From contig CAIYYN010000020.1 in assembly GCA_903930435.1 (NCBI GenBank), forward strand, positions 1 through 64,000: a stretch of DNA of 64,000 nt, read 5' to 3'. The translations under genes were made by a program, and so were the position numbers. Shown here piece after piece: positions 25,457 to 46,387 of this stretch. Below the pieces are notes generated by a model, which saw nothing but the letters and a program-made list of their open reading frames with translations, made no database searches and was not told the DNA's origin. This DNA is from an uncultured Hyphomicrobiales bacterium (lineage in GTDB: Bacteria > Pseudomonadota > Alphaproteobacteria > Rhizobiales > Ancalomicrobiaceae). Position 1 is the stretch's first letter. Each line of letters begins with the position of its first letter.

Positions 25457-25516
25457 GGTTCAAACCCGTCTGATCATGAGTCCCATGCGGCATGGGGACC
25501 GCGCCGGACTGTGCCG

Positions 25517-26524: not shown

Positions 26525-26544
26525 GCTTGTCTCCTCCCATGTAT

Positions 26545-26564
26545 CTTGTATACTAGTAAACAAG
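26545..26564. promoter_or_regulatory. 20-bp near-perfect palindrome between the TRAP operon and uxuA
   Basis: CTTGTATACTAGTAAACAAG matches its reverse complement at all but one base pair (positions 6 and 15). It resembles TTGTATAC-type operators of FadR-family hexuronate regulators. It lies 21 bp upstream of the DctP start and about 150 bp upstream of uxuA, so one bound regulator could control both directions. The likely binder is the GntR protein at 22923-23627. Confidence 0.6.
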
Positions 26565-26711
26565 CCATACAGAACCATTGGGTTTGGGGCAAGTGGGGCC
26601 AGCATGTTTTGGCCGCTTTGGGTGACGGCCCGGCATCAGGGCGCGGGCGTTTGAACATCTCTGCGTCCACCGAAAGCGCTCAAGCCGGACTGATCGGGAG
26701 CACAGACATCC

Positions 26712-27908
26712 ATGGAACAATGCTGGCGCTGGTTCGGACCCGGCGATACGGTCCCGCTCACGGCAATCACCCAGGCGGGGGCGGAAGGTGTTGTCACCTC
26801 GCTGCATCACATTCCCTACGGCGAGGTCTGGTCGGTCGAGGAAATCACCAAGCGACAGGCGATGATCGCGGCTGATCCCTCTCTTAAGCTGCGCTGGACT
26901 GTCGTCGAAAGCCTGCCGGTGCATGAGGCAATCAAGCTCGGGACCGGCGATCTCGCGCCCCTGTTCGACGCCTATCGCCAATCCATGCGCAATCTCGCGG
27001 CCTGCGGCGTCAAGACGATCTGCTACAATTTCATGCCCGTCGTCGACTGGACCCGGACCGAATTACGTCGCCGTTTGCCGGGTGATGGCAGCGCGCTCAG
27101 GTTCAATCTGCATGAGTTTGCAGCGTTCGATTGCTTCATGCTGGAGCGCCGCCACGCGGAAGGTGACTACACCGAGGCGGTTCTCGTGCGTGCGCGGGAC
27201 TGGTTCGGGACGGCGAGTGAGTCCGACAAGGCAACGCTGCTGGCCAGCATCATGGCGGGCCTGCCCGGTGCCTTTGACCGCTATGATATTCCGGGGCTCA
27301 GGACCATGCTGGCCCGCTATGGCGACATCGATCACGCGACGCTGCATGCACATCTCGCACGCTTCCTCGCCGAGGTGGTGCCGACAGCCGAAGAGCTTGG
27401 CATGCGGCTCGCAATCCATCCCGATGATCCGCCGCGCCCGATCATGGGCCTGCCACGCATTGTCTCGACGGCCGATGACATCCGCAAGCTCCTCTCCTCC
27501 GTCGACTCAGATGCCAATGGTCTGACCTTCTGCACGGGATCGCTTGGCGCAGGCGCACACAATGATGTGCCCGCAATGGCGACCGAATTCGCGGCGCGGA
27601 CGCATTTCGTGCATCTGCGCAATGTCGCAAAAGATCCTGACGGATCGTTTCAGGAGGCCGATCACCTCGGCGGCGATACCGACATGGTCGCCGTCATCAC
27701 CGCCTTCCTGACCGAGCAGAAGCGGCGGCGCGATGCTGGCCAGACCGACTGGCGACTGCCGATGCGACCCGATCATGGCCACGAATTGCTCGATGACATC
27801 GGCAAGGGCAGCTTCCCCGGCTATTCGGCCATCGGCCGCCTGAAAGGCCTCGCCGAACTCCGCGGTGTCATGACCGCCGTCGCCGCGATCAAGGGCTTGC
27901 CGATGTAA
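26712..27908 (+). CDS. uxuA: Mannonate dehydratase
   Basis: 398 residues, standard for UxuA, which converts D-mannonate to 2-keto-3-deoxy-D-gluconate in hexuronate breakdown. Family stretches: WRWFGPGDTVPLTAI, TSLHHIPYGEVW, TICYNFMPVVDWTRTEL, LAIHPDDPPRPIMGLPRIVS, CTGSLGAGAHND, FVHLRNV and RPDHGHELLDD, which supply the His, Cys, Asp metal and active-site residues. The start is ATG 26712 after GGGAG. It is divergent from the TRAP operon. It is clearer in identity than most genes here and sets the theme of this block. Confidence 0.96.
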   Translation: MEQCWRWFGPGDTVPLTAITQAGAEGVVTSLHHIPYGEVWSVEEITKRQAMIAADPSLKLRWTVVESLPVHEAIKLGTGDLAPLFDAYRQSMRNLAACGVKTICYNFMPVVDWTRTELRRRLPGDGSALRFNLHEFAAFDCFMLERRHAEGDYTEAVLVRARDWFGTASESDKATLLASIMAGLPGAFDRYDIPGLRTMLARYGDIDHATLHAHLARFLAEVVPTAEELGMRLAIHPDDPPRPIMGLPRIVSTADDIRKLLSSVDSDANGLTFCTGSLGAGAHNDVPAMATEFAARTHFVHLRNVAKDPDGSFQEADHLGGDTDMVAVITAFLTEQKRRRDAGQTDWRLPMRPDHGHELLDDIGKGSFPGYSAIGRLKGLAELRGVMTAVAAIKGLPM

Positions 27909-31577: not shown

Positions 31578-32588
31578 TCATGTCCGGCGCGCGTTGGCGC
31601 GGGCCTCGGGATTGACGATATCGGCCTCGCCTTCGCCGCTGATCATGGCCCAGAGATTGCGCGCAGCATGCCAGCCAATGCCCTCGGTGCCGTCCTTTGT
31701 CCAGGCGGCAACATGCGGCGTGCAAATGACATTGGGCATCTGGAACAGCGGGTCGTCGGTCCGGGGCGGCTCCTGATCGAAGACATCGAGTGCGGCCCCG
31801 GCAATCTTGCCCGTCTGCAGGGCCTCGCGCAGGGCGGGATAGTCGATGAGCGAGCCACGTCCCGTGTTCACCACGATTGCGTTCGGCTTCATGGCCGCAA
31901 AGGCCTCGGCGTTCAGCATGCGCAGATTGTCAGGACCGGGTGCCGCATGCAGCGTGATGAAATCCGAGCGTTCGATCAGGTCGCGAAGCCCGACGAGTTC
32001 GACGCCTTCAGGCGCGACCTTCAGGTAGGGGTCATAACCGAGGATCTTCGCTTCCCAACCGGACAGACGTTGCGCGACGCCAAGGCCGATGCGGCCAAGT
32101 CCGATGATCCCGACCGTTGCACCTCTGAGCGTGGCTGAATGAGTCAGTCCGCGCCAGCCACCGGCGCGCATGAACTCCGGTGTCCAGGTGCCGAGTTGCT
32201 TGGCAACGGCCAGCATCATGGCAACTGCATGCTCACTCACCGTGAAGATCTGGAACATGTTCGGCGTATTGCTGACGAGGATGCCGTGCTCCGTCGCCGC
32301 TTCCATATCGATGCTGTCATAGCCGATGCCATATTTCGAAATATAGCGAAGCGACGGCAAGGCTTCGATCACGCGACGCGAGACCCGCGTGCCGCTGGCC
32401 CCCATCAAGGCAATACAGCCTTGAGCCTTTTCGATCAGTTGGTCTTCCGTAAACCGCTTGAATGGCATTTCCCAGAGGGCATGCCCCAATTCGACCGCCA
32501 GGCCCTTTTCTCGCAACCACGCAATCGAACTATCCGTGGGATCATACCGTTCGAACGCGAGAACTGACATCGAATTGGCGTTGGGCAT
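31578..32588 (-). CDS. D-isomer-specific 2-hydroxyacid dehydrogenase (phosphoglycerate dehydrogenase-like)
   Basis: 336 residues. NAD-binding core VGIIGLGRIGLGVAQRL (about residue 160) and the catalytic trio: Arg in VNTGRGSLID, Glu in DQEPPRTDD, His in TPHVAAWT. Such enzymes oxidise or reduce D-2-hydroxyacids (glycerate, hydroxypyruvate, aldonates). It lies 30 bp downstream of a GntR gene on the same strand and across from a sugar ABC importer, suggesting a role in using the imported compound rather than serine synthesis. The C-terminal ACT domain of true SerA is absent. Confidence 0.9.
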   Translation of the reverse strand: MPNANSMSVLAFERYDPTDSSIAWLREKGLAVELGHALWEMPFKRFTEDQLIEKAQGCIALMGASGTRVSRRVIEALPSLRYISKYGIGYDSIDMEAATEHGILVSNTPNMFQIFTVSEHAVAMMLAVAKQLGTWTPEFMRAGGWRGLTHSATLRGATVGIIGLGRIGLGVAQRLSGWEAKILGYDPYLKVAPEGVELVGLRDLIERSDFITLHAAPGPDNLRMLNAEAFAAMKPNAIVVNTGRGSLIDYPALREALQTGKIAGAALDVFDQEPPRTDDPLFQMPNVICTPHVAAWTKDGTEGIGWHAARNLWAMISGEGEADIVNPEARANARRT

Positions 32589-32618: not shown

Positions 32619-33365
32619 TCAGACGGATTGACCACGAAAGATGCGCTCGCACGTATTGCTCAAGTGCATTCGCATTGCTTCGCGCGCGCTGTCGGCATCT
32701 TTACGAGCGATGGCCTCAAAGATAGCAACGTGTTCGTTCTGCACGGCGCGAAGGTGGGCTTCGGATTTTCCAAGCGAAAGCTTGCGCGCGATGTCGATGA
32801 CGATATTGACCTGCTCGCTCATGGCCTCGAGCGCTTCGACAAACCAGTTATTTCCGCTTGCTTGCGCGACAGCGAGATGAAACGCAAAATCGGTGTCACC
32901 CGAGGAGGCCCGTTGCTCAACGGCCTTTTCAAGATCGGCCAGAGCCAGCCGGATTGCCTGCAACTGTGCCTCGGAAGCGTTCAATGCGGCGAAGTAGGCG
33001 GCTTCGCCCTCGACAGCCTTTCGATAATCATAGGCATGGCCGATTTGCTGGAAACTGTTGATCGGTGAGAACGTTGGACTGACACGCTGGGCAGATGCAC
33101 TGACGCGCTCACTCACATAGCTCCCCGAACCGCGACGCGATGAAATGATGCCTTCCTCACGCATCCGCGCCAGTGTTTCGCGAACAGTGGGCCGCGAAAC
33201 GCCAAAGCGCTCGGCAACCGTGACCTCGGACGGCAGTCGCGAGCCCGGCGGCAATTCCTCCTCAATCATCTTGACGAGCGCGAGATAGAGATCATCCCGC
33301 AGCCGTCCCGGTGGCTTCAGAAAGCGAGAATCCCCAGTCTCTTGTGTGACGTCGTTTGTTGGCAT
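32619..33365 (-). CDS. GntR-family (FadR subfamily) transcriptional regulator
   Basis: About 248 residues from ATG 33365 (MPTNDVTQET). Winged helix: LPPGSRLPSEVTVAERFGVSR and PTVRETLARMREEGIISSRRG. The FCD domain has YRKAVEGEAAYFAAL, FHLAVAQASGN and HVAIFEAIARKDA. An ORF extending to 33434 is unlikely since it would run through the regulatory region. It precedes the hydroxyacid dehydrogenase gene and is divergent from a sugar ABC operon. The 31-bp palindrome at 33428-33458 and the TTGTATGACAG at 33397-33407 are candidate binding sites. Confidence 0.88.
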   Translation of the reverse strand: MPTNDVTQETGDSRFLKPPGRLRDDLYLALVKMIEEELPPGSRLPSEVTVAERFGVSRPTVRETLARMREEGIISSRRGSGSYVSERVSASAQRVSPTFSPINSFQQIGHAYDYRKAVEGEAAYFAALNASEAQLQAIRLALADLEKAVEQRASSGDTDFAFHLAVAQASGNNWFVEALEAMSEQVNIVIDIARKLSLGKSEAHLRAVQNEHVAIFEAIARKDADSAREAMRMHLSNTCERIFRGQSV

Positions 33366-33396: not shown

Positions 33397-33458
33397 TTGT
33401 ATGACAGATTTGCCAATTTATGGAAAGTTGTCAAGCTAATTAAATATTAGATTGACAA
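33397..33458. promoter_or_regulatory. Candidate GntR operators, including a 31-bp interrupted palindrome
   Basis: At 33428-33458 two 13-base arms (TTGTCAAGCTAAT and ATTAGATTGACAA) match at 12 of 13 positions around a TAAAT centre. At 33397-33407 TTGTATGACAG matches the TTGTCTGACAA operator found before the other sugar operon at nine of eleven bases. Both lie in the 179-bp gap between the GntR gene and the divergent ABC ATPase gene, the right place for two-way control. Confidence 0.5.
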
Positions 33459-33544
33459 CAATACCGGTTTCGGACAGCTTTAGCGCAGATCAAAAAGGCT
33501 GCTCCAACGGCGGCTATCAGGGTGGAAACAGGAAAAGGCTCGGC

Positions 33545-35074
33545 ATGCTGGAGGTACGCGGCGTATTCAAGCGTTTTGGCGGCACGCAGGCATTGAACGA
33601 CGTCGGCCTGACGATCGGCAAGGGCGAAGTCGTCGCGCTGCTTGGTGAGAATGGTGCGGGCAAATCAACGCTGATCAAGATCCTCGCAGGCGTCTACACC
33701 GCAGACAGCGGCACGATTTCCTACAATGGCACCGACATGTCGCAAGCCGTGCGGCGGATGCCAGTCGCCTTCATCCATCAGGATCTCGGCCTCATCGACT
33801 GGATGACAGTTGCCGAAAACATTTCGCTCACGCTCGGTTACTCCCGCAAGTTCGGCATGATCGACTGGGAAGCAGCCCGCGCTCGCGCTCGCCGGGTTCT
33901 GGCCCGATTGGGAGCGGATATTCATCCGGACATGCGCGTCCAGAGCCTCAATCGCACTGAAAAATCCCTCGTTGCGATCGCGCGCGCGCTTGCGGCTGAC
34001 GCCGAAATTCTCGTGCTTGACGAACCCACTGCGAGCCTGCCGGCCGACGAGGTGTTGCGCCTGTTTGACGCCGTCCGACGCCTGAGGGATCAGGGGGTCG
34101 GCATGATCTATGTATCGCATCGGCTCGACGAAGTGTTTGCGATCGCCGACCGCATGGTGGTCCTGCGCGACGGCAAGGTCGTGGGCGAGCGGATCGTTGA
34201 ACAGACATCAGCCGACGAGACCATCCTGCTGATCGTCGGACGGGAACCGTCACAGGTGTTCAGCCGCCCGGTGGAGCGACTGGGCGACCCGATGCTATCG
34301 GTCACCGGGTTGAAAGTTGGCCCCGTCGGGCCGATCGATTGCAATCTCCATGCAGGCGAAATCCTGGGACTTGTCGGATTGCGGGGCGCTGGACAGGAAG
34401 TTGTCGGGCGGACGCTGTTTGGCATGCAGCAAGCCGAAGGTGGCACGATCACGATCGGCGGCAGAAGTGCTGCGGTCAAAACACCGCGCGAGGCCATGGA
34501 TCTCGGGATCAATCTGATCTGTGCCGACCGCGTCGGGGAATCCATCACACCCGGCCTCTCCATTCGCGAAAATTTCTTCCTCAATCCCTTGGCAGCCGGT
34601 GCCAACCTGACCACCTGGTTATCGCCTCAGTCGGAATCACAGATGGCACGCCATCTCGGTGAGAAAGTCGGGCTGCGACCGAATGACCCGACGCTGGCCA
34701 TTGAACTTCTATCAGGTGGAAACCAGCAAAAGGTGGTCGTCGGTCGTTGGCTGAACCTGCATTCCAAGGTCTACATCTTCGAGGATCCGACTGCCGGTGT
34801 CGACGTCGGAGCCAAGGCCGAGATCTACGGACTGTTTGATGTCGCCCTCAGCGAAGGTGCCGGGATCATCATCATTTCAACCGATTTCGAGGAAGTGGCA
34901 AAAGTCTGCCACCGAGCCCTTGTGTTTGATCGTGGCAAGGTTGTCGACGAACTCTCAGGCGACAGCCTGAACATCGAGAATTTGCTGGCCTCGGCGTCAG
35001 CAAGCATTGATCGCGCCGGCGGCAGACAGAAACAGAGCGAAAACGATAGAGACCTCAATCATGCAGTCCATTAA
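33545..35074 (+). CDS. Sugar ABC transporter ATP-binding protein (two ATPase domains)
   Basis: About 509 residues from ATG 33545, after AGGAAAAGG. It has two ABC domains as in RbsA/MglA. Domain 1 has Walker A GENGAGKST and Walker B ILVLDEPTASL, but its signature reads LNRTEKSLVAIARAL instead of LSxGQxQ. Domain 2 lacks a Walker A Lys (VGLRGAGQE), keeps the signature LSGGNQQKVVVGRWL, and its Walker B reads FEDPTAGVD, with the usual Asp-Glu order reversed. So one composite ATP site looks complete and the other degenerate. It powers import with the permease and binding protein that follow. It overlaps the permease gene by 14 bp. Confidence 0.9.
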   Translation: MLEVRGVFKRFGGTQALNDVGLTIGKGEVVALLGENGAGKSTLIKILAGVYTADSGTISYNGTDMSQAVRRMPVAFIHQDLGLIDWMTVAENISLTLGYSRKFGMIDWEAARARARRVLARLGADIHPDMRVQSLNRTEKSLVAIARALAADAEILVLDEPTASLPADEVLRLFDAVRRLRDQGVGMIYVSHRLDEVFAIADRMVVLRDGKVVGERIVEQTSADETILLIVGREPSQVFSRPVERLGDPMLSVTGLKVGPVGPIDCNLHAGEILGLVGLRGAGQEVVGRTLFGMQQAEGGTITIGGRSAAVKTPREAMDLGINLICADRVGESITPGLSIRENFFLNPLAAGANLTTWLSPQSESQMARHLGEKVGLRPNDPTLAIELLSGGNQQKVVVGRWLNLHSKVYIFEDPTAGVDVGAKAEIYGLFDVALSEGAGIIIISTDFEEVAKVCHRALVFDRGKVVDELSGDSLNIENLLASASASIDRAGGRQKQSENDRDLNHAVH

Positions 35075-36158
35075 ATCAAGCGCGCTCGAACCGACGCGCC
35101 TCGAACTGGCGGCGCTGTCACCGGCACAGAAGATCATGCGACTGGCCCCCGTCTACGGGTTGCCCATTCTCACCGTCTTCCTGATCATCCTGTTCTCGAT
35201 CCTGCTGCCAGACACCTTCCCGACAGTCCTGAATTTCCGGTCGATTCTTGCGGACAAGGCCATCGTTGCCATGCTGGCGCTTGCGGCAACCTTGCCGATG
35301 ATGGCTGGACGCATCGACCTGACGGTCGGGTTCGGCATCGTGATGTGGCACATCCTTGCCATCAGCCTGCAGGTCAAATTCGGCTTTTCGTGGCCAATGG
35401 CCATCCTGATCACGGTCCTGTGCGCGTCACTGGTCGGACTGTTCAATGGTATTCTGGTCGAGGTCGCCCAGGTTGATGCCTTCGTCGCGACGCTCGGCAC
35501 GGGCACAATTCTCTACGCGCTGGCGTTATGGCATACCGAAGGTCGCCAGATCATGGGCACCCTGCCGCCAGCCTTTCTGGCGATCAACGGGGCGTCCGTC
35601 CTCGGAATCCCGATTGCAGCGATCTATGTGGTGCTGCTTGCCATCGTGCTGTGGATCATCAGTGAGCGCATGCCGATCGGGCGCTTCATCTATGCGATTG
35701 GTGCCAACGAAAAGGCCGCTTCACTCAATGGTATCCCCGTGCGCGCCTATGTGATCGGCGTGTTCGTGGCCTCGGGCATGATCGCGGGCCTCGCCGGATG
35801 CGTCCTGGCTGCCAAACTGCGCATCGGACAGGCGAATGTCGGCCTCGACTTCCTGCTCCCGGCGCTCGTGGGTGCCTTCCTCGGATCGACAACCATCAAG
35901 CCGGGCCGCGTCAATGTCTGGGGCACGATCTGCGGCATCCTCATTCTGGCAGTCGGCATCTCGGGCATCCAGCTTTTCGGCGGTGCCTTTTTCGTCGAGC
36001 CCCTGTTCAACGGCGTGACGCTCGTGCTCGCAATTGCGCTCGCAGCCTTTGCCCAGCGCCGACGCACCGTGGTGAAGGGCAAGATTGCTCCCTCAGCCAA
36101 TGTTTCAATCAAGGAGGCGCCGACTGCTGCGCCTGGTACGGAACACGTCAGAAGCTGA
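35061..36158 (+). CDS. Sugar ABC transporter permease (RbsC type)
   Basis: About 365 residues from ATG 35061. BPD_transp_2 family with eight or more helices; typical parts are GRIDLTVGFGIVMWHILAI, VDAFVATLGTGTILYALALW and IYAIGANEKAASLNGIPVRAYV. It forms the channel of a monosaccharide-type importer as a homodimer; only one permease gene is present, in contrast to the second importer at 43299-45355. Its start lies 14 bp inside the ATPase gene. Confidence 0.9.
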   Translation: MQSIKSSALEPTRLELAALSPAQKIMRLAPVYGLPILTVFLIILFSILLPDTFPTVLNFRSILADKAIVAMLALAATLPMMAGRIDLTVGFGIVMWHILAISLQVKFGFSWPMAILITVLCASLVGLFNGILVEVAQVDAFVATLGTGTILYALALWHTEGRQIMGTLPPAFLAINGASVLGIPIAAIYVVLLAIVLWIISERMPIGRFIYAIGANEKAASLNGIPVRAYVIGVFVASGMIAGLAGCVLAAKLRIGQANVGLDFLLPALVGAFLGSTTIKPGRVNVWGTICGILILAVGISGIQLFGGAFFVEPLFNGVTLVLAIALAAFAQRRRTVVKGKIAPSANVSIKEAPTAAPGTEHVRS

Positions 36159-36238
36159 GACAGCTTTTTACGTTCAAGCCGGATCGTCCGGCACGGCTCA
36201 CGAACACGTGGCCATCTCACAAAAGGGAGGAATGGAAC

Positions 36239-37369
36239 ATGATACTTTCAAGGACATTGGCAAAGGCTCTGCTGGCATCAGCTGCGATCACGGCAGTCGG
36301 TTTCACCGCAGCCCGGGCTGACGATGCAGATTACCTGGCCAAGGCCAAGGCCTATCTGGCCAATGTTGCATCCCCGGTCACCAAGTGGGATGGCCCGACG
36401 ACTGGCGCCAAGGGTGTTGGCAAGAAGCTGATCGCGATCGTCTCGACCGACCAGCGCAATGGTGGTGCGCAGGGTGCTGGTGACGGCGCAGCTGAAGCCG
36501 CCAAGGCACTTGGCTGGGACGTGCGTCTCCTCGACGGCCAGGGAACTGTCCCCGGACACGCAACAGCCCTGCAGCAGGCGATCGCCATGAAGCCGGACGG
36601 TATTCTCAACGTCGGTATCGACTCCAAGGAACAGCAGCCGATTCTCGAACAGGCCGCTTCGCTCGGCATCAAGGTTGTCGGCTGGCATGCTGGCCCGGCT
36701 CCGGGCCCGATCGACGGTATTCCGGCTGTCTTAACGAACGTGACGACGGACCCGTCGGAAGTCGCCAAGTCGGCCGGTCTTGAAGCTGTCGTGAAGTCGC
36801 AGGGCGGCGATTGCGGCGTGATCCTGTTCACGGACTCGATCTATGCCATCGCGACTGCCAAGACCAATGCCGAACGCGCTGCCGTCGAAGGCTACTCGAA
36901 GTGCAAGGTGCTTGAAGTCGCCGACACACCGATCGCAGACCTCTCGAACCGCATGGGTCAGCTGACGACGTCGCTGCTCGCCAAATACGGCAAGAAGTGG
37001 ACCTATTCGCTGGCCGTCAACGACCTCTATTATGACTTCTCGGCTCCGTCCCTGCAGGTTGCTGGCGTCGATCCGGCCAATGGCTTCCCGCAGCAGATTT
37101 CAGCTGGTGACGGCTCCGTCCCCGCCTTCAAGCGTATCCGCGACAAGCAGTACCAGATTGCAACCGTCGCTGAGCCGCTCAATCAGCAGGGCTGGATCAT
37201 GATCGACGAAATGAACCGCGCGCTGGCTGGCCAGAAGCCTTCAGGCTTCGTGCCACACGTCCATCTGTTCACGGCGGATAACGTCGACAAGGACGGCGGA
37301 GCAGAGAACAAGTTCGATCCCGGCAACGGCTATCGCGACGAATACAAGAAGATCTGGGGCGTCAAATAA
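36239..37369 (+). CDS. Sugar ABC transporter periplasmic substrate-binding protein
   Basis: 376 residues. Signal peptide MILSRTLAKALLASAAITAV with cleavage after AARA. Peripla_BP_4-type fold: LIAIVSTDQRNGGAQGAGDG, GWDVRLLDGQGTV, ALQQAIAMKPDGILNVGIDS. A pair of cysteines (GGDCGVIL, SKCKVLEV) may form a disulfide. The ribosome site AAGGGAGGAATGG precedes ATG 36239. It is longer than RbsB (about 296), and its substrate cannot be told; the operon lacks sugar kinase or aldolase genes. A strong terminator follows. Confidence 0.88.
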   Translation: MILSRTLAKALLASAAITAVGFTAARADDADYLAKAKAYLANVASPVTKWDGPTTGAKGVGKKLIAIVSTDQRNGGAQGAGDGAAEAAKALGWDVRLLDGQGTVPGHATALQQAIAMKPDGILNVGIDSKEQQPILEQAASLGIKVVGWHAGPAPGPIDGIPAVLTNVTTDPSEVAKSAGLEAVVKSQGGDCGVILFTDSIYAIATAKTNAERAAVEGYSKCKVLEVADTPIADLSNRMGQLTTSLLAKYGKKWTYSLAVNDLYYDFSAPSLQVAGVDPANGFPQQISAGDGSVPAFKRIRDKQYQIATVAEPLNQQGWIMIDEMNRALAGQKPSGFVPHVHLFTADNVDKDGGAENKFDPGNGYRDEYKKIWGVK

Positions 37370-37389
37370 TCCTGTGATCATAACGACTG

Positions 37390-37427
37390 CGACGCTTGCG
37401 GACCCCGGTCCGCGAGCGTCGATTTTT
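37390..37427 (+). terminator. Strong intrinsic terminator after the substrate-binding protein gene
   Basis: A 15-base stem (37390-37404 with 37407-37421; one mismatch, loop CC) is followed by TTTTT. GC-rich and 20 bp after the stop codon. It would reduce transcription into the LVIVD and bicupin genes, as is common after highly expressed binding-protein genes. Confidence 0.8.
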
Positions 37428-37490
37428 GAGGATTGAGGCAGATCCAACTGCCCGGACTGCGACCATATGTGCCCGCCTAGGAGATGAACG

Positions 37491-38744
37491 ATGAGCAGTG
37501 AACTCCCGACACCTGATTACGCAACGAGCAATATGAAACTTGTCGGCTACTCCGACCAGGACGGCCGCTGCGATGGCGTGCAGATCATGGTGCATCGCGG
37601 GTATGCCTATATCGGCCATATCTTTTCCAAGGGTTTTTCCATCGTCGACGTGCGCGACCCAAAGCATCCCAAGACCGTTAAATATGTCGCGGCGCCACAT
37701 AATACCTGGTCGCTGCATTTGCAGGCGCACGATGACCTCCTGCTTGTGGTCCATAACAAGGACATGTTTGCCCAGCCCGAGTTGGCAAACGAAAAGGAGT
37801 ATTACAAGGGCAGCGTCGATCATCATGCAGGCGATGCACATGCCGAACAGGACTGGTCCGCCGGTATGGCCGTCTATGATATTTCGAAGCCGGATGATCC
37901 CCGACAGATCGGGTTCATGCCGGTCAAGGGCACAGGGTTGCACCGGATCTGGTATGTCGGCGGGCGCTGGGCCTATGCCTCGGCCCTGCTGGAAGGCTTC
38001 ACCGACTACATCATGATCACCATCGACATGGCGGATCCCACCAATCCGATCCTGACCGGCAAGTTCTGGCTGCCAGGCATGAACAAGGCGGCGGGCGAAG
38101 TCGCGAACTGGCCGACCAAGAATGGCCGCTTCGGCTTACATCATCCGATCATCCACAATGATATCGCCTATTGCAGCTGGCGCGATGCCTGCCTTGCCGT
38201 TGTTGATGTGAAGGACAAAGCCAACCCGAAACTGATCACGCACAAGGTCTGGGCACCACCCTTTGGTGGCGGCACCCACAACGCGCTCCCGCTGCCAAAT
38301 CGCGATTTGCTGCTCGTCGTGGACGAGACGGTTCTCGACAATCAGGAAGATGGCTTCAAGCCGATCTGGGTGTTCGACAACCAGGTGAAATCAAATCCGA
38401 TCAGCATCTCGACCTTCCCGCAGCCATCCGACAAGGATTACCTGAAGGTCGGCGGTCACTTTGGTCCGCATAATATTCACGAAAACCGGCCGGGGAGCTT
38501 TGTCAGCGAAGAGATCATCTTCGCGACCTATCAGAACGCGGGCCTCAGGGTTTACGACATCAAGGACCAGTTCCGCCCGCGCGAAATCGGCGCTTTTGTG
38601 CCACCGCCGCCAGCCAAATGGGTCGATCCACGCCCGAACCGGCCAATCGTCCTGCACTCCGCAGACGTGTTCGTCGACAAGAATGCACTCTGCTATGTGA
38701 CAGACTTCAGTGCAGGCCTCTATATCGTTGAATATAAAGGCTGA
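37491..38744 (+). CDS. LVIVD repeat-containing protein
   Basis: 417 residues, no signal peptide. It is built of repeats with the pattern aromatic-hydrophobic strand, Gly-hydrophobic-x-Val-Val-Asp-hydrophobic, then Asp-Pro-x-x-Pro: FSIVDVRDPKHPKTV, MAVYDISKPDDPRQIG, ITIDMADPTNPILTG, LAVVDVKDKANPKLI and LRVYDIKDQFRPREIG. This is a predicted beta-propeller (LVIVD/COG5276), distantly like selenium-binding protein. His-rich spots (SVDHHAGDAHAEQDW; GLHHPIIHND; HFGPHNIHEN) could bind metal at the propeller centre. It sits between a sugar importer and a bicupin, 18 bp before the latter, so an enzyme in the same pathway is plausible. No specific reaction is known to me. Confidence 0.8.
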   Translation: MSSELPTPDYATSNMKLVGYSDQDGRCDGVQIMVHRGYAYIGHIFSKGFSIVDVRDPKHPKTVKYVAAPHNTWSLHLQAHDDLLLVVHNKDMFAQPELANEKEYYKGSVDHHAGDAHAEQDWSAGMAVYDISKPDDPRQIGFMPVKGTGLHRIWYVGGRWAYASALLEGFTDYIMITIDMADPTNPILTGKFWLPGMNKAAGEVANWPTKNGRFGLHHPIIHNDIAYCSWRDACLAVVDVKDKANPKLITHKVWAPPFGGGTHNALPLPNRDLLLVVDETVLDNQEDGFKPIWVFDNQVKSNPISISTFPQPSDKDYLKVGGHFGPHNIHENRPGSFVSEEIIFATYQNAGLRVYDIKDQFRPREIGAFVPPPPAKWVDPRPNRPIVLHSADVFVDKNALCYVTDFSAGLYIVEYKG

Positions 38745-38762
38745 TTACGGGAGCAACTCGCA

Positions 38763-39665
38763 ATGTACGACAAGGTAGATCCCCGCGCCGCGCTCATGGC
38801 GGCGGAGGCGGCGAAGGTTGCCGTTTTCACAAGTTATCGGCCTTCGGACTACGTCCGCTTTTATGAGCGCAAGCCGCAAATCGTCGACGCGACCGGGCGG
38901 ACATGGCTGGCGCGTGGAAACAGTGCTGTCATTTCCTATTCGGAAGTCACGGCAGGTGCCAGTTTTTCGCGCCCTGACCAGATCGATGAATGGGTCATTC
39001 TGCTGCCGGATGCCGATACCAGACTGGAGGTGACGGTCGCAGGCGAAACGACCGTGATCACAGGTCATTCCATCAACTTCATTCCGGCAGGCGCATCGAC
39101 AACGCGCGTGCTGGCAGGGGGGCGGGTCGTCCGCATGTTCACGAACCGGTCGACCGATCTGGCGGAATGCAGCCTGAATGCCGGGACCTTCTCGACACCC
39201 AATCCGAATATTCCGCCCTTCGTTGCCTGGCCGGAACCGACGGATGGATGGCGCGTGCGAAGCTATAGCCTCGACGTTGCACCCCAGCCGGGTCGTTTCG
39301 GGCGTATCTGGCGCTGCACGACGTTCATGATCAATGTGTTCGATCCGACGCACGGACCGAGGGATGTGACGAAGCTTTCACCGCATCATCACAATGAGTT
39401 CGAGCAATTCTCGCTCGCCTTGCAAGGATCGTTCATCCATCACCTGCGCTGGGCCTGGACACAGGACATGACGATGTGGAAGCCGGACGAACACGAGTTC
39501 TGCGGCACGCCGTCGCTCGCCATCATCCCGCCGCCTGCGATTCATACGACGCGTGCGCTCGACCCCGGCACCAATCTGCTTGTTGATATCTTTGCGCCGC
39601 CGCGCATGGATTTCACGAAAATGGACGGCTGGGTGCTCAACAACGCCGACTATCCGATTCCCTGA
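38763..39665 (+). CDS. Bicupin domain protein of unknown function
   Basis: 300 residues in two cupin halves. The first (about 45-135; EWVILLPDADTRLEVTV, GHSINFIPAGAS) lacks metal ligands. The second (about 180-290) has SPHHHNEFEQFSLALQGSF, matching His-x-His...Glu, and PPPAIHTTRALD for the last His, so probably a metal-dependent enzyme such as an isomerase or dioxygenase. No signal peptide. It follows the LVIVD gene by 18 bp and ends the operon before a terminator. I cannot name the reaction; bicupins in sugar operons include uronate isomerases, but the match is not clear. Confidence 0.7.
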   Translation: MYDKVDPRAALMAAEAAKVAVFTSYRPSDYVRFYERKPQIVDATGRTWLARGNSAVISYSEVTAGASFSRPDQIDEWVILLPDADTRLEVTVAGETTVITGHSINFIPAGASTTRVLAGGRVVRMFTNRSTDLAECSLNAGTFSTPNPNIPPFVAWPEPTDGWRVRSYSLDVAPQPGRFGRIWRCTTFMINVFDPTHGPRDVTKLSPHHHNEFEQFSLALQGSFIHHLRWAWTQDMTMWKPDEHEFCGTPSLAIIPPPAIHTTRALDPGTNLLVDIFAPPRMDFTKMDGWVLNNADYPIP

Positions 39666-39766: not shown

Positions 39767-40549
39767 TCAGGATTGTCTGGCTGACATGGATTGGATGGTT
39801 GTTTCCAACACGTGCTCGAGATGCCGCCGGTAGCTTTGAACGGCAGCCTCGACATCATGGGCGAGGATCGCCTCGCCGATCTCGCGATGCTGGCGCACGC
39901 TCTTGGGGATCACGCCCGGCAAAGCACTGGCAACACGGCGCTCGTCCAGTCCAACGTCGTATAGCCCCTGGGCGACTGCTGTCAGCATCCGGTTGCCACT
40001 GCCGTCATTGATGGCCTGATGATATTCGGCATCCATGAGGCGGAAGGCAACGGGGTCATCGTGGAATGCGTCACCATCCTCGGCCAGCTTCATGATGCGG
40101 CGGCGCTGAACAAGTGAGGCGTTCAGCGTACAGAGGCGGACCAGTTCAAGATCGATCAGCGCGCGCGACTGGAAGAGATCATGAACATCATAATCGGCGA
40201 ATGACATCATGGAATTGAACGGCGCAACCAACCGGCTGGGCGACAGGTCCGTGACGGTGTAACGCCGCCCTTGCCGGCTTTCGAGCACGCCCATCAACGT
40301 CAGCGCCTTCAACGCCTCGCGTAGCGGCGGTCGGCTGATGCCAAAAGCGAGCCCCATCTGCTGCTCTGTGGGCAATCGATCACCCGACTTGAGATTGCCG
40401 CTCTTGATCATCGACAGAATGCGTTTTGCAACCTGTTCGGCAATCGGTTGCCGCCCCGAAACGCTGCCGCCAAGCTCTGCAGCTGGCTTCGGCTTCCGAC
40501 CCGCCTCAATCAATTCATCAAAGGCATCAAGTTCTGCGGGCGCGTGCAC
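39767..40549 (-). CDS. GntR-family (FadR subfamily) transcriptional regulator
   Basis: About 260 residues. HTH: SGDRLPTEQQMGLAFGISR and PPLREALKALTLMGVLESRQ. FCD domain: FQSRALIDLELVRLCTLNAS, DAEYHQAINDGSGNRM and HREIGEAILAHDVEAAV. The start is uncertain: I chose GTG 40549 with GGAG nine bases before; TTG 40576 and starts up to 40741 are in frame, but the latter would cover the operator region. Divergent from the aldose dehydrogenase and second ABC importer, which it probably represses together with itself through the repeats at 40616-40664. Confidence 0.87.
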   Translation of the reverse strand: MHAPAELDAFDELIEAGRKPKPAAELGGSVSGRQPIAEQVAKRILSMIKSGNLKSGDRLPTEQQMGLAFGISRPPLREALKALTLMGVLESRQGRRYTVTDLSPSRLVAPFNSMMSFADYDVHDLFQSRALIDLELVRLCTLNASLVQRRRIMKLAEDGDAFHDDPVAFRLMDAEYHQAINDGSGNRMLTAVAQGLYDVGLDERRVASALPGVIPKSVRQHREIGEAILAHDVEAAVQSYRRHLEHVLETTIQSMSARQS

Positions 40550-40615
40550 GTCCGGCGTCTCCGGGGATGTCGGCAAGATGACGTTATCGTCGTTTTTGAT
40601 CGATCCGACACTTTT

Positions 40616-40664
40616 TTGTCTGACATGTTGTTCGGGACTTGTCAAACAAATCTTTGTCTGACAA
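40616..40664. promoter_or_regulatory. Three copies of an 11-bp operator TTGTCTGACAA
   Basis: TTGTCTGACAT (40616-40626), TTGTCAAACAA (40639-40649) and TTGTCTGACAA (40654-40664). The last is a perfect 5-1-5 palindrome; the others have one arm mismatch each. They lie in the divergent gap between the GntR gene and the aldose dehydrogenase gene (start 40723), in a typical spot for FadR-type autoregulation and control of the importer operon. Confidence 0.65.
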
Positions 40665-40722
40665 GTTACGTGCAGATCCAAGAGCCCGCTCGAAAAGGCC
40701 TGTGATCCCAGGGAGGATTTAC

Positions 40723-41763
40723 GTGCGACCGCTGCCGTCAACCCGTCGTCGCGTCAAGGCGACACAGCTGGATCTGCCTGTCTTCGGCTTCGGCTCGGCG
40801 CATCTGGGCGAACTTTACAGCGTCGTTCCGGAATCGCAGTCGATAGCGACTCTCGGTGCGGCGTGGGACCTCGGGGTGCGTTTTTACGACACCGCACCCT
40901 GGTATGGCCGTGGCCTGTCGGAACACCGGATTGGTGGGTTCTTGCGCACAAAGCCGCGCAGCGAGTTCCAGGTCACGACGAAGGTCGGACGCACCTTGCA
41001 TCGACCGAAAGATCCCGCCAGCTTTGATCGCGCACCCTGGACCGGCGGCCTGAATTTCGAGGTCAGGTTCGACTACAGCTACGACGGCATCATGGCAGCC
41101 TATGAGCAGTCGCTCGTTCGGCTCGGCCTTGATACGGTCGACGCGCTCATCATTCACGATCTCGATGAAGGCTATCACGGCGACGCCTACAAGGACCATC
41201 TGAAGGCTCTGTCCGACAGCGGGATGAGGGCGCTGACGGAACTCAAATCCAGAGGCGACATCGCTGCATTCGGCATGGGCATCAACACCAACCATGCACT
41301 CGAAGCCATCGCATCGACGGTTGATCTAGATTTTGTGCTGGTGGCGATGCCCTACACGCTGCTGGACCAGGCCAGTCTCCACACCGGAATGGCCGCTTGC
41401 CAGCGTCGCGGTATCAATGTCGTGATCGGTGCGCCCTTTGCCTCCGGTATCCTGGTGACGGGCTCGGGCAGCCAGGCGAAATATGGCTACGCGAACGCGA
41501 CGCCGGAGGTTCAGGCAAAGGTGCGTGGCCTTGAAGCGGTCTGCCGGGACCACGGCGTGACGTTACCAGCCGCCGCCCTGCAATTCCCGCTCGCGCATCC
41601 GATGGTCGTCTCCGTCATTCCTGGCGCCTCGAAGCCGAGCGAAGTCACTGAAAATGTCGCCTCACTCCAGTCGCCAATTCCAGATTCCTTCTGGAGCGAC
41701 CTGAAGGCCCGCAATCTGATCGATCCCGCATCGCCCGTCCCAACACAGATCTGGAACACCTGA
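40723..41763 (+). CDS. Aldo/keto reductase, D-threo-aldose 1-dehydrogenase (L-fucose dehydrogenase) type
   Basis: About 346 residues from GTG 40723, seven bases after GGGAGG. Aldo/keto reductase barrel: LPVFGFGSAHLGELY, GVRFYDTAPWYGRGLSE (catalytic Asp and Tyr), VTTKVGRTL (Lys) and DALIIHDLDEGY (His), the pattern of aldose 1-dehydrogenases that oxidise L-fucose, D-arabinose or L-galactose to lactones. It is the first gene of the operon with a complete sugar ABC importer, three bases before the ATPase, so the imported substrate is probably a related deoxy-sugar or aldose. Confidence 0.86.
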   Translation: MRPLPSTRRRVKATQLDLPVFGFGSAHLGELYSVVPESQSIATLGAAWDLGVRFYDTAPWYGRGLSEHRIGGFLRTKPRSEFQVTTKVGRTLHRPKDPASFDRAPWTGGLNFEVRFDYSYDGIMAAYEQSLVRLGLDTVDALIIHDLDEGYHGDAYKDHLKALSDSGMRALTELKSRGDIAAFGMGINTNHALEAIASTVDLDFVLVAMPYTLLDQASLHTGMAACQRRGINVVIGAPFASGILVTGSGSQAKYGYANATPEVQAKVRGLEAVCRDHGVTLPAAALQFPLAHPMVVSVIPGASKPSEVTENVASLQSPIPDSFWSDLKARNLIDPASPVPTQIWNT

Positions 41764-41766
41764 CCG

Positions 41767-43302
41767 ATGCAACCCGTCAGCGCCACCGATAAGGCACCGA
41801 TGATGTCGCTGCGCGGCATCACGAAGCAATTCGCCGGTGTCGAGGTGCTGCGGGACGTGGATCTCGACCTTTATCCGGGCGAGATCCATGCCCTGCTTGG
41901 CGAAAATGGCGCGGGCAAATCAACCTTTTCCAAGATCATCGCCGGTGTGCATCGCCCAACGCGCGGCACCATCACCCTGAACAGCGAGCGCGTCGAAATC
42001 AGCAATCCGCTGGCTGCACAGCGGCTCGGGATCACCCTGATCCATCAGGAACCGATCTCGTTTCCCGATCTGTCGATTGCTGAAAATCTCGTGATGGGCA
42101 GGACCGAGGGCTCGCTGCTCAAGCGGGTGACCTGGGGCGAAATGACCCGCGATGCCAACCGATTGATGAACCTGCTGGATATCCGCATTGACGTGACCAA
42201 GCCGATGCGGGGCCTGTCGATTGCCGACCAGCAGATGGTCGAGATCGCGCGGGCACTGGCCAGTGACAGTCGCCTGATCATCATGGACGAGCCGACGGCA
42301 TCGCTGACGCCCAAGGAAACGGCGATCCTGTTCCGTATCGTCAGGCGACTGCGGGATGAAGGCCGAACGATTATCTTCATCAGCCATCGTCTTGAGGAAG
42401 TTCGTGCACTCTGTGACCGCGTCACCATCTTTCGCGACGGCAATCGAGTCACAACCGATACGATCCAGTCACTGACAGATACAGATATCATCCGTCTCAT
42501 GATCGGCAGGCCGCTGCAGGATTACATGCACAAGCAGGGGACAACCATCGGCGACGTTGCGCTGGAAGCGCGGAACCTGACCTTGCCGGGGACGTTTGAA
42601 GACATCAGCTTTACGGTCAGAAAGGGCGAAATTGTTGGTCTGGGCGGTTTGGTGGGTGCGGGTCGAACGGATGTCGCCAAGGCCATTTTCGGGATTGCGC
42701 CGGCTCAGTCAGGCCGCGTGCTGATCAACGGGCAGGACGTCCAGATCCGCGATCCCAGTGACGCAATCGCGCTGAAATTGGCGTTCGTACCGGAGGACCG
42801 AGCGATTGCCGGGATTTTCCGCAGCCTGTCGGTTGAACAAAACATCACAGCCGCCGTGCCGGATCAGATCGCGCCTTCTGGCTTCATCCGCCGATCCCTC
42901 GAAAAGGGGATTGCCGAGGCCCAGGTCACCCGGATGAGCATCCGTCTCGCAAGTCAAAGGCAGCCGATTGGCGAACTCTCGGGCGGCAATCAGCAGAAGG
43001 CGATCCTCGCCCGCTGGCTTCTGACAGATCCCGAGGTGCTGATCCTCGACGAGCCAACGCGCGGCATCGACATCGGCGTGAAGGCGGAGTTTTACGACAT
43101 GATCGGCGCATTGGCGGCGAGCGGTCGCGCGATCCTGCTGATCTCGTCGGAATTGCCGGAACTGCTTGCCCTGTGTGACCGGATTCTGGTGATGTCCGAA
43201 GGTCGGCTTACCGCCAACATCCTGCGCGCAGAAGCAACCCAGGAAGCAATCATGTTCGCCGCAGTGCCCAAGACCACCCGTCAGATCGAGGGAGTGGCAT
43301 GA
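41767..43302 (+). CDS. Sugar ABC transporter ATP-binding protein (rhamnose/ribose type)
   Basis: 511 residues with two ATPase domains. Domain 1: GENGAGKSTFSKIIAG, signature LSIADQQMVEIARAL, Walker B LIIMDEPTASL. Domain 2: VGAGRTDVAKAI (degenerate Walker A, usual in this family), LSGGNQQKAILARWL, VLILDEPTRGIDIG. FIHQE-type loop LIHQEPISFPDLS. Powers the importer built from the next three genes. Four-base overlap (ATGA) with the first permease gene. Confidence 0.93.
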   Translation: MQPVSATDKAPMMSLRGITKQFAGVEVLRDVDLDLYPGEIHALLGENGAGKSTFSKIIAGVHRPTRGTITLNSERVEISNPLAAQRLGITLIHQEPISFPDLSIAENLVMGRTEGSLLKRVTWGEMTRDANRLMNLLDIRIDVTKPMRGLSIADQQMVEIARALASDSRLIIMDEPTASLTPKETAILFRIVRRLRDEGRTIIFISHRLEEVRALCDRVTIFRDGNRVTTDTIQSLTDTDIIRLMIGRPLQDYMHKQGTTIGDVALEARNLTLPGTFEDISFTVRKGEIVGLGGLVGAGRTDVAKAIFGIAPAQSGRVLINGQDVQIRDPSDAIALKLAFVPEDRAIAGIFRSLSVEQNITAAVPDQIAPSGFIRRSLEKGIAEAQVTRMSIRLASQRQPIGELSGGNQQKAILARWLLTDPEVLILDEPTRGIDIGVKAEFYDMIGALAASGRAILLISSELPELLALCDRILVMSEGRLTANILRAEATQEAIMFAAVPKTTRQIEGVA

Positions 43303-44303
43303 TGCGACTGACGGCAGGAATCGGCGCGCTCATGCGGCATCGCGAGGCCGGCAACTTCGTGATGATTGTCCTGCTGGCCATTGTTGTCGGGCTGATCCAG
43401 CCACGGTTCCTGACGCTCGAAACGCTCAGGAACGTGATGCTGGCAATCCCACTCATCCTGATTGCCGCGATGGGGCAGATGATGGTGATCATCGCCCGTC
43501 ACGTTGATCTGTCGATGGGATCGATCCTCGGTTTTTCAGCGATTGTGGCCGGCATGATGTTCCGGGACATGCCCGATGTGCCGATACTGATCGGCGTATT
43601 GGTCGCTATCCTGGTGGGGGCCGGGCTCGGCTTCCTGAATGGGGCCATCGTCACGCTCTTCGGGCTGCCGTCGATCATCGTCACGCTCGGAACCTTGAGC
43701 CTCTATCGCGGATTTGTGTTTCTCATTTCAAATTCGAGGCAGGTTGATCCGCAATTTATCCCGCGTGCCCTGATCCAGATGTCACAGACATCACCGATCC
43801 TCGGCATTCCCTGGCTGGTGATCATCGCCTTCCTGACCGCATTGGCGTCGTATCTCTTTCTCGATCACATGCGACTGGGTCGTCAGATCTATGCGCTCGG
43901 TTCCAACCCGAGCGCCGCGCCCTTGCGAGGCATTCGCGTGGTGCCCGTAACCTTGCTGGTCTTCACGCTGTCGGGGGCGCTCGCCGGACTGGCAGGCGTC
44001 ATGTATGCGGCACGCTTTGGCTATGTGAATCCCGGGATTACGGGCGTTGGCTTCGAATTCACGGTGATTGCTTCCGTCGTGATCGGTGGCGTGTCGATTA
44101 ATGGCGGCGTCGGCACGGTGCTCGGGACGATCCTCGGCGTGATCCTGCTCGGCATGGTCAATGTCGCGCTGCCGCTCCTCGGCGTCTCGGAATTCTGGCA
44201 ATCAGCGATCCTCGGGGCCGTCATCATCGTGGCGCTACTCATCGACCGCTCGGTCCGCATCAGCGGACAACAGGCGCTCGCGGCGGAAAGGAGCGCCAGA
44301 TGA
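43299..44303 (+). CDS. Sugar ABC transporter permease 1 (RhaP-like)
   Basis: 334 residues, BPD_transp_2 family. Motifs MMVIIARHVDLSMGSILGFS, LPSIIVTLGTLSLYRGFVFL and IYALGSNPSAAPLRGIRVVP. Two different permease genes sit side by side here, as in rhamnose and autoinducer-2 type importers, so the channel is probably a heterodimer. Four-base overlaps at both ends. Confidence 0.92.
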   Translation: MMRLTAGIGALMRHREAGNFVMIVLLAIVVGLIQPRFLTLETLRNVMLAIPLILIAAMGQMMVIIARHVDLSMGSILGFSAIVAGMMFRDMPDVPILIGVLVAILVGAGLGFLNGAIVTLFGLPSIIVTLGTLSLYRGFVFLISNSRQVDPQFIPRALIQMSQTSPILGIPWLVIIAFLTALASYLFLDHMRLGRQIYALGSNPSAAPLRGIRVVPVTLLVFTLSGALAGLAGVMYAARFGYVNPGITGVGFEFTVIASVVIGGVSINGGVGTVLGTILGVILLGMVNVALPLLGVSEFWQSAILGAVIIVALLIDRSVRISGQQALAAERSAR

Positions 44304-45355
44304 CGCCAGTCGGGTCCCCCAAGCCAGTCGACGCATTGGACTCTGCGGGCCAGCAGCCAACCGCGACTGTTTCGGCACCTCAGTCGGGACGCGAATTTGC
44401 CCCGGCCCGTCCCATTTGGCAGGTGCTGCTGATCAGGCCCGAAACGGTGACGCTGGCGCTGCTGATCGGCGCGATCATTGTCGGCAGTCAGCTGTCGCGG
44501 TTCTTTCTGGATATCAGCTACATTCTGGAAAGCTCGACGCTCTATTCCGAATATTCGATTGTCGCGCTCATGCTGACGCTGGTCATCATTTCGGGCGAAA
44601 TCGACCTGTCGCCAGCCTCGATGATGGCCCTGTCTGCCTGCGTATTTGCGTCCGTGTTTCAGGCGGGCGCGCCGATCTGGCTGGCTATCCTCGCGTCATT
44701 CGCCTGCGGTCTGGCGATGGGGGCGTTTAACGCGATCCTCGTCATCGGCTTCCGCCTGCCGTCGATCATCGTCACGATTGGCACGCTGACCCTCTATCGT
44801 GGACTTGCACAAGTCCTCGCCGGAGATCGCTCGATCAGCCATTTCCCGGACTGGTTCGTTGGCATCGATTACCGGGAAATTCTCGATGTGCCGGTTCCGG
44901 TGATCCTGTTCACTGTCGCGGCAATCATCGTCGGCCTGTTCCTCGGTATGACGATCCCGGGCCGTCAGATCTACCAGATCGGCACGAATGAGATCGCCGC
45001 GCGTCATGCAGGCATTCGGGTCCAGCGCATCAAGGCGGGACTTTTCGTCGGAATGGGCCTCGTCGCCTCGTTGGCGGGCCTGATCACGGCATCACGGCTG
45101 GCGTCGGTCCGTTACGACATGGCCACGGGCGGCGAATTGCAGATGGTGCTGATGGTGATGCTCGGCGGCACCTATATTTTTGGCGGACGGGGCACAATTC
45201 TGGGAACCTTTCTGGCGTCCTGGCTGCTGGTCATCATCGCCACGGGCATGACGGTGGCCAATATTGTCGTCACGTCACAACTCATTGTGATGGGGGTTCT
45301 CCTCATCACCTCGATAATCGCGACCAACGCGATCTATGCTCGATCGCAAAGATAA
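44300..45355 (+). CDS. Sugar ABC transporter permease 2 (RhaQ-like)
   Basis: 351 residues, BPD_transp_2 family, with a longer polar N-terminus (about 45 residues) before the first helix. LVIISGEIDLSPASMMALSA, LPSIIVTIGTLTLYRGLAQV and IYQIGTNEIAARHAGIRVQR mark the family. Partner of the preceding permease; its start is inside that gene's stop. Confidence 0.92.
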   Translation: MTPVGSPKPVDALDSAGQQPTATVSAPQSGREFAPARPIWQVLLIRPETVTLALLIGAIIVGSQLSRFFLDISYILESSTLYSEYSIVALMLTLVIISGEIDLSPASMMALSACVFASVFQAGAPIWLAILASFACGLAMGAFNAILVIGFRLPSIIVTIGTLTLYRGLAQVLAGDRSISHFPDWFVGIDYREILDVPVPVILFTVAAIIVGLFLGMTIPGRQIYQIGTNEIAARHAGIRVQRIKAGLFVGMGLVASLAGLITASRLASVRYDMATGGELQMVLMVMLGGTYIFGGRGTILGTFLASWLLVIIATGMTVANIVVTSQLIVMGVLLITSIIATNAIYARSQR

Positions 45356-45385
45356 CGAGCGGGCAGGCAAAACAGGAGGAAGACA

Positions 45386-46387
45386 ATGCTCAGGAAATCA
45401 CTTATCGCCGGTCTCATTGCAGGCACTGCCCTGATGGCAACGACGGCTCTGGCCGCCGACAAGACGTCCATCGTCTATATCCCGAAAAACACGGGTAATC
45501 CCTATTTCGACAGCCTCGTGCAAGGCTTCGTCGATGGCTGCGAGAAGGCAGGCTGCACGTTCACCACGGCAGCACCGGCAACCGCCGAGGCCACGTCACA
45601 AATCCCGTTTATCACCGCGCAGACGCAGCGTGGCGTGAACGTGATCGCCATTTCGCCCAACAGCCCGGACGCGCTTGATCAGGTCTTCGATCGTGCCCGC
45701 GCCAAGGGAACCCTCGTGTTCGCGGTCAATGGCGACATTACCGGCAACACGCAGCATCGCGATGCAGCCATCCTGCCGGTCGACTTCACCAAGACGGGAC
45801 CGGGCCAGGTCGAACTGGTCGGCTCCATGATCGGCTATGAAGGCGAGATCGCGATCCTGTCGGCAACGACGGACGCTCCGGACCAGAACGCCTGGATCAA
45901 GGACATGGTCGCCACGCTGAAGTCGAACCCCAAGTACGCCAAGATGACGCTTGTCGCGACCGTCTATGGCGATGACGAGCCGCAGAAGTCGACGACGGTT
46001 GCCGAAGCGCTTCTGTCAAAATATCCGAACCTGAAGGGCATCATCGCGCCAACGACGGTCGGCATCGCTGCGGCAGCGCAGGTTGTCCAGTCCGCCGGAA
46101 AGGCGAAAACCGTGCATGTCACGGGTCTTGGCACACCGAACCAGATGCGTCCGTTCATCAAGGACGGCACCGTTTCGGCGTTCCAGCTCTGGAGCCCCTA
46201 TAACGAGGGTCTGCTGTCGGCTTATTTCGCCGTCGCTGTCAAGGAAGGCAAGATCAAGAATGAGCCCGGTGCAACGCTCGACGTGCCCGGTCTTGGCAAG
46301 GTCACAGTCGGCCCGGATCACGTAATCAACACACAAGCCGAACTGACGACCTTCAACGCTGCCAATATCGACAAGTTCAATTTCTAA
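45386..46387 (+). CDS. Sugar ABC transporter substrate-binding protein (rhamnose type, RhaS-like)
   Basis: 333 residues. Signal peptide MLRKSLIAGLIAGTALMATT with cleavage at ALA. The start of the mature part, TSIVYIPKNTGNPYFDSLVQ, then GVNVIAISPNSPDALDQVF and VYGDDEPQKS, follow rhamnose/autoinducer-2 type binding proteins. Strong ribosome site AGGAGG before ATG 45386. With two permeases and one double ATPase the importer matches the rhamnose class, but no rhamnose kinase or isomerase is nearby and the operon begins with an aldose dehydrogenase. A terminator follows at once. Confidence 0.9.
   Translation: MLRKSLIAGLIAGTALMATTALAADKTSIVYIPKNTGNPYFDSLVQGFVDGCEKAGCTFTTAAPATAEATSQIPFITAQTQRGVNVIAISPNSPDALDQVFDRARAKGTLVFAVNGDITGNTQHRDAAILPVDFTKTGPGQVELVGSMIGYEGEIAILSATTDAPDQNAWIKDMVATLKSNPKYAKMTLVATVYGDDEPQKSTTVAEALLSKYPNLKGIIAPTTVGIAAAAQVVQSAGKAKTVHVTGLGTPNQMRPFIKDGTVSAFQLWSPYNEGLLSAYFAVAVKEGKIKNEPGATLDVPGLGKVTVGPDHVINTQAELTTFNAANIDKFNF

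Follow-up and report, generated by a model that had tools for sequence, protein, structure and literature searches.

The importer cassette and its MtrY-family propeller

The 64,000-nucleotide stretch of uncultured Hyphomicrobiales DNA analyzed here (the window) contains a gene cluster in which an ATP-binding cassette (ABC) importer of the ribose class is followed directly by an LVIVD beta-propeller of the MtrY family (COG5276). The importer is encoded on the forward strand by genes for a two-domain RbsA/AraG-like ATPase (33545-35074), a permease of the BPD_transp_2 family (35061-36158) and a periplasmic sugar-type binding protein of the Peripla_BP_4 family (36239-37369), all assigned with Pfam and NCBIfam; one two-domain ATPase, one permease and one binding protein give the cluster the domain composition of a ribose-class (CUT2) importer. 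The propeller gene (37491-38744, forward; Pfam E 1.6e-8, family alignment and structural model) encodes 417 residues, including several invariant histidines, and is followed after 18 bp by a bicupin gene (38763-39665, forward). A GntR regulator and a D-2-hydroxyacid dehydrogenase are encoded divergently, on the reverse strand. The first-pass annotation had listed the same genes, with families and directions that were recovered by Pfam and NCBIfam or, for the bicupin, by family alignment, and had correctly stated that the cluster contains neither a kinase nor an aldolase; the interval it gave (33397-39665) leaves out the regulator and the dehydrogenase named in its title.

The propeller has no visible signal peptide and is therefore probably cytoplasmic. 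It is 59% identical over 415 residues to a Klebsiella LVIVD protein whose gene adjoins mtnK and mtnA, and the Klebsiella and Enterobacter relatives (59-61% identity) are encoded directly after the binding protein of an importer near mtnK and mtnA. The Klebsiella importer was named mtrACB in 2011, as a probable methylthioribose transporter, and its LVIVD gene mtrY (COG5276), of unknown role; a trio ybdH2-mtrB2-mtrY2 was also reported (PMC3228920). With full-length similarity to enterobacterial MtrY and a gene directly after that of the binding protein, the window's propeller is very probably a member of the MtrY family, and its cassette of the MtrACBY type. It had previously been regarded as unassigned, a view that the identity to the mtrY product overturns. 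The description of the module as new was right in that the papers searched describe no pathway worked out for this clade, and wrong in that the gene order mtrB-mtrY was published in 2011 (PMC3228920). Papers on deoxyribonate and GapMind contained nothing on LVIVD proteins.

The genomic context of the family was assessed around LVIVD homologues at 50 loci, a sample of convenience that includes related members. A ribose-class permease was encoded within 7 kb of the propeller at 35 of the 50 loci and a ribose-class ATPase at 31, and at 28 a binding-protein gene, of one of three types, lay directly upstream on the same strand. The pairing of importer and MtrY is a genuine recurrent module, and one that is already known. 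Close LVIVD relatives are present in 33 of 397 genomes of the order; sampling across the class at E 1e-60 gave just four further homologues beyond the window, at 35-37% identity.

The homologues nearest to the window's propeller (81-86% identity), from Methylocapsa, Bradyrhizobium and Hyphomicrobiales metagenome-assembled genomes (MAGs), are mostly encoded in the same order, ATPase-permease-binding protein-LVIVD. The importer parts at these loci are 66-84% identical to those of the window (ATPase 66-74%, permease 71-84%, binding protein 69-84%). The exceptions are two loci in which the importer is reversed (L079, L081) and a contig that shows no importer (L078). A tandem LVIVD paralogue, which shares about 72% identity with the window's propeller, adjoins the first copy at four loci (L072, L078, L079, L081), in the place that the bicupin takes in the window.

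The three classes of binding protein beside the propeller differ in their companions: one is often accompanied by MtnK, one often by DenD and OtnK, and the third is that of the window. The LVIVD tree largely tracks these classes and places the window's propeller in a clade apart from Klebsiella MtrY. Between classes the propellers are 58-59% identical, the binding proteins 23% identical over part of their length (E 8e-4) or not convincingly similar, and the ATPases 34% identical. That the propeller stays nearly constant although the binding proteins of the adjoining importers are unrelated shows that the role of MtrY is not restricted to methylthioribose.

The enzymes encoded beside the propeller also vary. 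D-2-hydroxyacid dehydrogenases are found in the window and at two further loci (L094, L077), proteins like flavin mononucleotide-dependent hydroxyacid dehydrogenases at L091 and L093 (named by eye from sequence), a flavin adenine dinucleotide/Fe-S protein at L106, and DenD at L108 and L109; 2-hydroxyacid-type oxidoreductases or erythronate genes are recurrent neighbours, the recurrence being given without a background rate. On Rahnella and Erwinia plasmids (L098, L104) a binding protein and the propeller occur without an ATPase or permease, beside a YbdH-like dehydrogenase, an arrangement that matches the published ybdH2-mtrB2-mtrY2 trio (PMC3228920). LVIVD genes also occur with CUT1-, tripartite tricarboxylate- and branched-chain-type transporters. 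At three Rhodobacter-type loci (L083, L084, L088) the propeller gene is the last of an operon with a CUT1-type importer, whose other products, named by eye, resemble an FGGY kinase, a class II aldolase, a HAD phosphatase and a glyoxalase, a set that points to a further sugar pathway involving LVIVD; in Skermanella, a distant LVIVD protein (30% identity; L121, 2921-4192) is encoded collinearly with a tripartite tricarboxylate transporter.

Fold and candidate metal site of the propeller

An AlphaFold model of the propeller built from 18 sequences (predicted local distance difference test score (pLDDT) 89, predicted template modelling score 0.90) has seven blades. Foldseek returned a Sphingobium phosphotriesterase (Sb-PTE; PDB 5hrm) as the top match to this model at E 3e-17, the next unrelated fold following at 8e-9, and a sequence profile of the propeller matched only 5hrm and 5ioj among PDB sequences. 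The 5hrm alignment was also the longest, with the highest identity, among the propellers that were tied in VIA-align. Comparison of the propeller with a viral fold library gave nothing specific.

The Sb-PTE gene was located on Sphingobium plasmids and its product aligned with the LVIVD family. Among the metal ligands of Sb-PTE, taken here to include E201, H389, E407 and H475, two (H389 and E407) align with the invariant LVIVD residues H263 and E279. According to the model and the alignment, the conserved residues H76, H217, H218, H263 and H327 lie at or near the inner-strand starts of successive blades, the usual place of a propeller active site or channel-centred metal site. These observations tip the balance slightly towards the propeller being a metal-dependent enzyme, and the match to a metal-dependent propeller hydrolase supplies a substrate class and a set of residues (H76, H217, H218, H263, E279 and H327) for testing.

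Several observations pull the other way. The VIA-align score to 5hrm (Z 31.3) is tied with those of many non-enzymatic propellers, such as WD40 scaffolds; of the presumed Sb-PTE ligands, E201 aligns with a tryptophan, and H475 with a non-invariant histidine three residues from an invariant one; and no member of the family has a known substrate or activity.

The bicupin and the divergent control region

The bicupin matched no family in Pfam or NCBIfam, and a weak match to KdgF (E 0.047) was not relied on. Alignment of its relatives bore out the first-pass statement that the metal ligands are intact in the second half only: H208, H210 and H261 are invariant there and E214 nearly so, giving a complete 3-His/1-Glu site, and the first half has no conserved histidine. 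A single-sequence AlphaFold model was unusable (pLDDT 35).

The gene is present in 25 of 297 genomes of the order, and its own surroundings were examined at 23 loci. An HpcH/HpaI aldolase is encoded within 5 kb at 17 of them and a DUF6282 protein at 14. The idea that the propeller and bicupin travel as a pair was rejected by the criterion that the first-pass annotation had itself set, scarcity of the pair in other genomes: none of the 23 bicupin loci has an LVIVD gene nearby, no bicupin was found in eight LVIVD-bearing genomes, and the closest cassettes (81-86% LVIVD identity) have none. Among the matches listed, the two are encoded together only in the window's genome, and the sole other genome with both (G192) has them on separate contigs, with a bicupin of 37% identity. 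DUF6282 was not found in the window's genome, where HpcH is represented only by distant relatives (29%), and neither an aldolase nor a DUF6282 gene lies in the window. The simplest reading of these co-occurrence data is that the bicupin is a lineage-specific addition at this locus. The survey also brings to light a cupin family, so far without a name, whose recurrent partners are the aldolase and the DUF6282 protein. A catabolic module of HpcH/HpaI aldolase, bicupin and DUF6282 hydrolase-like protein was seen at eight loci (L044, L046, L051, L055, L059, L063, L102, L103), often with IclR and tripartite ATP-independent periplasmic (TRAP) or tripartite-tricarboxylate transporters; the literature searched makes no mention of DUF6282.

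On the other side of the importer, a partly conserved operator region separates the ATPase gene from those of the regulator and the dehydrogenase. The regulator (32619-33365, probable, reverse; Pfam and NCBIfam) combines a helix-turn-helix with an FCD domain, which places it in the FadR subfamily of GntR regulators; its likely ATG start is at 33365, and the open frame extends to 33434. The region between the GntR and ATPase genes, 179 bp long, contains a 33-bp inverted repeat, GTTGTC...GACAAC (33427-33459, forward), a probable operator or promoter element that recurs in the MAG locus L094 as GTTGT-N23-ACAAC with the same spacing and position. A conserved FadR-type operator-like motif, TGTATGACAGAT, lies at 33398-33409 (forward). 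Within the nine upstream regions of this importer clade, TGTNNNACAGAT occurs in five (shuffled mean 0.004 loci) and GATTGACA in seven (0.08 expected), counts that are descriptive only, both motifs having been picked after inspection; TGTNNNACAGAT has a single match in the 64 kb of the window.

The dehydrogenase (31578-32588, reverse; Pfam, NCBIfam and PDB sequence matches) resembles phosphoglycerate dehydrogenase and glyoxylate reductase. An orthologue of 77% identity occupies the same divergent position at L094, and a homologue of 40% is found at L077. Relatives of 79% identity on Mesorhizobium plasmids lie away from any importer, so the link between dehydrogenase and importer rests on the window and L094, together with the 40% homologue at L077.

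Two further systems lie in the window. Directly 3' of the bicupin is a second ribose-class importer cluster (39767-46387) with its own GntR regulator and an aldo/keto reductase, which is separate from the present finding, and positions 22923-27908 encode a TRAP transporter (a DctQM fusion and DctP), a GntR-like protein and a UxuA-type mannonate dehydratase.

Proposed function and comparison with known systems

The best explanation for these observations, to which we assign a probability of roughly 0.6, is that the locus is an importer cassette of the MtrACBY type, from a clade with a substrate other than methylthioribose, joined by a lineage-specific bicupin. Besides the contrary points on fold and ligands given above, the following count against it. 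No ribose-class importer part was found within 7 kb at 13 of the 50 LVIVD loci, where other genes or transporters occur instead; those loci are the convenience sample described above; and a strong terminator-like hairpin between the binding-protein and propeller genes (37390-37421, forward; 14 pairs, then ATTTTT) may partly uncouple the propeller from the importer. Most homologous loci have strong hairpins in the same gap, differing in sequence from that of the window.

The family, the genomic context and the fold are established by the observations above, whereas the chemistry is inferred. Under this explanation, the importer would take up a small compound of the sugar or sugar-acid kind, with an aldonate, a keto-aldonate or a lactone as the likeliest candidates. 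Like the Sphingobium phosphotriesterase, the propeller would hold a divalent metal in the channel at its centre, and it would catalyse one generic step at C1, such as lactone or ester hydrolysis or opening of the ring, irrespective of the compound imported; a shared step of this kind would account for a propeller that hardly varies beside binding proteins and downstream enzymes that do. The product, a 2-hydroxyacid, would then be interconverted with the corresponding 2-keto acid by the dehydrogenase. The bicupin, probably co-transcribed, would be a cupin that depends on metal and derives from a different catabolic module; it might act on the same intermediate, as an isomerase or a dioxygenase. 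The idonate/gluconate-type relatives of the binding protein and the recurrent 2-hydroxyacid oxidoreductases are the reasons for favouring a metal-dependent enzyme that acts at C1, by hydrolysis or ring opening, and supplies a 2-hydroxyacid step. Lactone or ester hydrolysis as the reaction itself is a tentative suggestion, and equally speculative is the wider notion that MtrY propellers are widespread, unrecognized cytoplasmic metal-dependent enzymes performing one generic C1 step on a wide range of sugars and sugar acids brought in by ABC importers, among them methylthioribose, erythronate and the compound taken up by the window's cassette.

A sharper form of this explanation is doubtful. In it, a C6 aldonate, for example L-idonate, D-gluconate or a ketogluconate, would be the substrate, the dehydrogenase would resemble 2-ketogluconate reductase and the propeller would be a lactonase. 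The PDB contained no relative of the binding protein at E 1e-6. Its nearest plasmid relatives, at about 55% identity, belong to idonate/gluconate-type clusters of Rhizobium etli and Martelella that carry gluconokinase, L-idonate 5-dehydrogenase, an SMP-30 lactonase and a 2-hydroxyacid dehydrogenase. An identity of 55% does not fix the ligand, however, and no LVIVD gene lies in the examined stretch of those clusters. A 2-ketogluconate reductase is among the PDB matches of the dehydrogenase, but phosphoglycerate dehydrogenase and glyoxylate reductase are better ones.

It is rather unlikely that MtrY propellers lack enzymatic activity and instead assist the importer or the regulator in the cytoplasm, coupled to the binding protein as an assembly factor or as a buffer or sensor of the ligand. 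In favour of such a role, seven-bladed propellers mostly serve as scaffolds for binding, several of which tie with the model in VIA-align, and MtrY stays with the binding-protein gene even on the Rahnella and Erwinia plasmids and in the ybdH2-mtrB2-mtrY2 trio (PMC3228920). However, several blades carry invariant histidines and acidic residues at or near the points where their inner strands begin, an enzyme is the nearest match among solved structures, and the occurrence of LVIVD proteins with three other transporter types argues against a fixed protein partner.

The first-pass proposal of a single dedicated, undescribed pathway, here taken with the propeller and bicupin as a catalytic pair, is improbable: the five importer-side genes are co-directional, with the short gap before the bicupin, and the literature searched describes no pathway with such a gene set, but the propeller-bicupin adjacency occurs in no other genome examined, the closest cassettes have no bicupin, and the relatives of the bicupin accompany an aldolase and a DUF6282 protein that the window's genome lacks in the latter case. 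Import of methylthioribose for methionine salvage, as proposed for enterobacterial mtrACBY, is suggested by the identity to Klebsiella MtrY and by an MtnK-like kinase at seven alphaproteobacterial and enterobacterial LVIVD loci, and is rejected for the window's genome as very improbable, since neither MtnK nor MtnA was found there (the MtnA search had working controls; MtnP was not searched for), the binding protein is unlike MtrB and the propeller belongs to another clade.

As far as the papers searched show, the breadth of the importer-MtrY pairing, the constancy of the propeller beside exchangeable binding proteins, the likeness to a metal hydrolase, the operator and the true family of the bicupin are new. 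Compared with the HpcH/HpaI aldolase-bicupin-DUF6282 modules, the window's bicupin is 50-57% identical to most of their bicupins and keeps the metal residues, but adjoins an importer-LVIVD cassette in a genome without DUF6282. The DenD-OtnK erythronate clusters of Pararhizobium and Shinella share with the window a FadR-type regulator, divergent catabolic genes, the order ATPase-permease-binding protein-LVIVD and a propeller of 58% identity; unlike the window, they contain a kinase and an aldolase, and their binding protein is not convincingly similar. Sb-PTE, the haloalkylphosphorus hydrolase of Sphingobium sp. TCM1, has a seven-bladed LVIVD-type propeller, and the equivalents of its H389 and E407 are invariant in the LVIVD family, whereas it is only about 18% identical, some 80 residues longer and set in a different genomic context, and its presumed ligand E201 is not kept. 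The mtrACB-mtrY system of enterobacterial methionine salvage (PMC3228920) is alike in its ribose-class importer and in a propeller of 59% identity encoded directly after the binding protein. It differs in its binding protein (23% over part), in its ATPase (34%) and in the presence of mtnK and mtnA, and where that system has MetJ boxes, the window has a divergent GntR gene.

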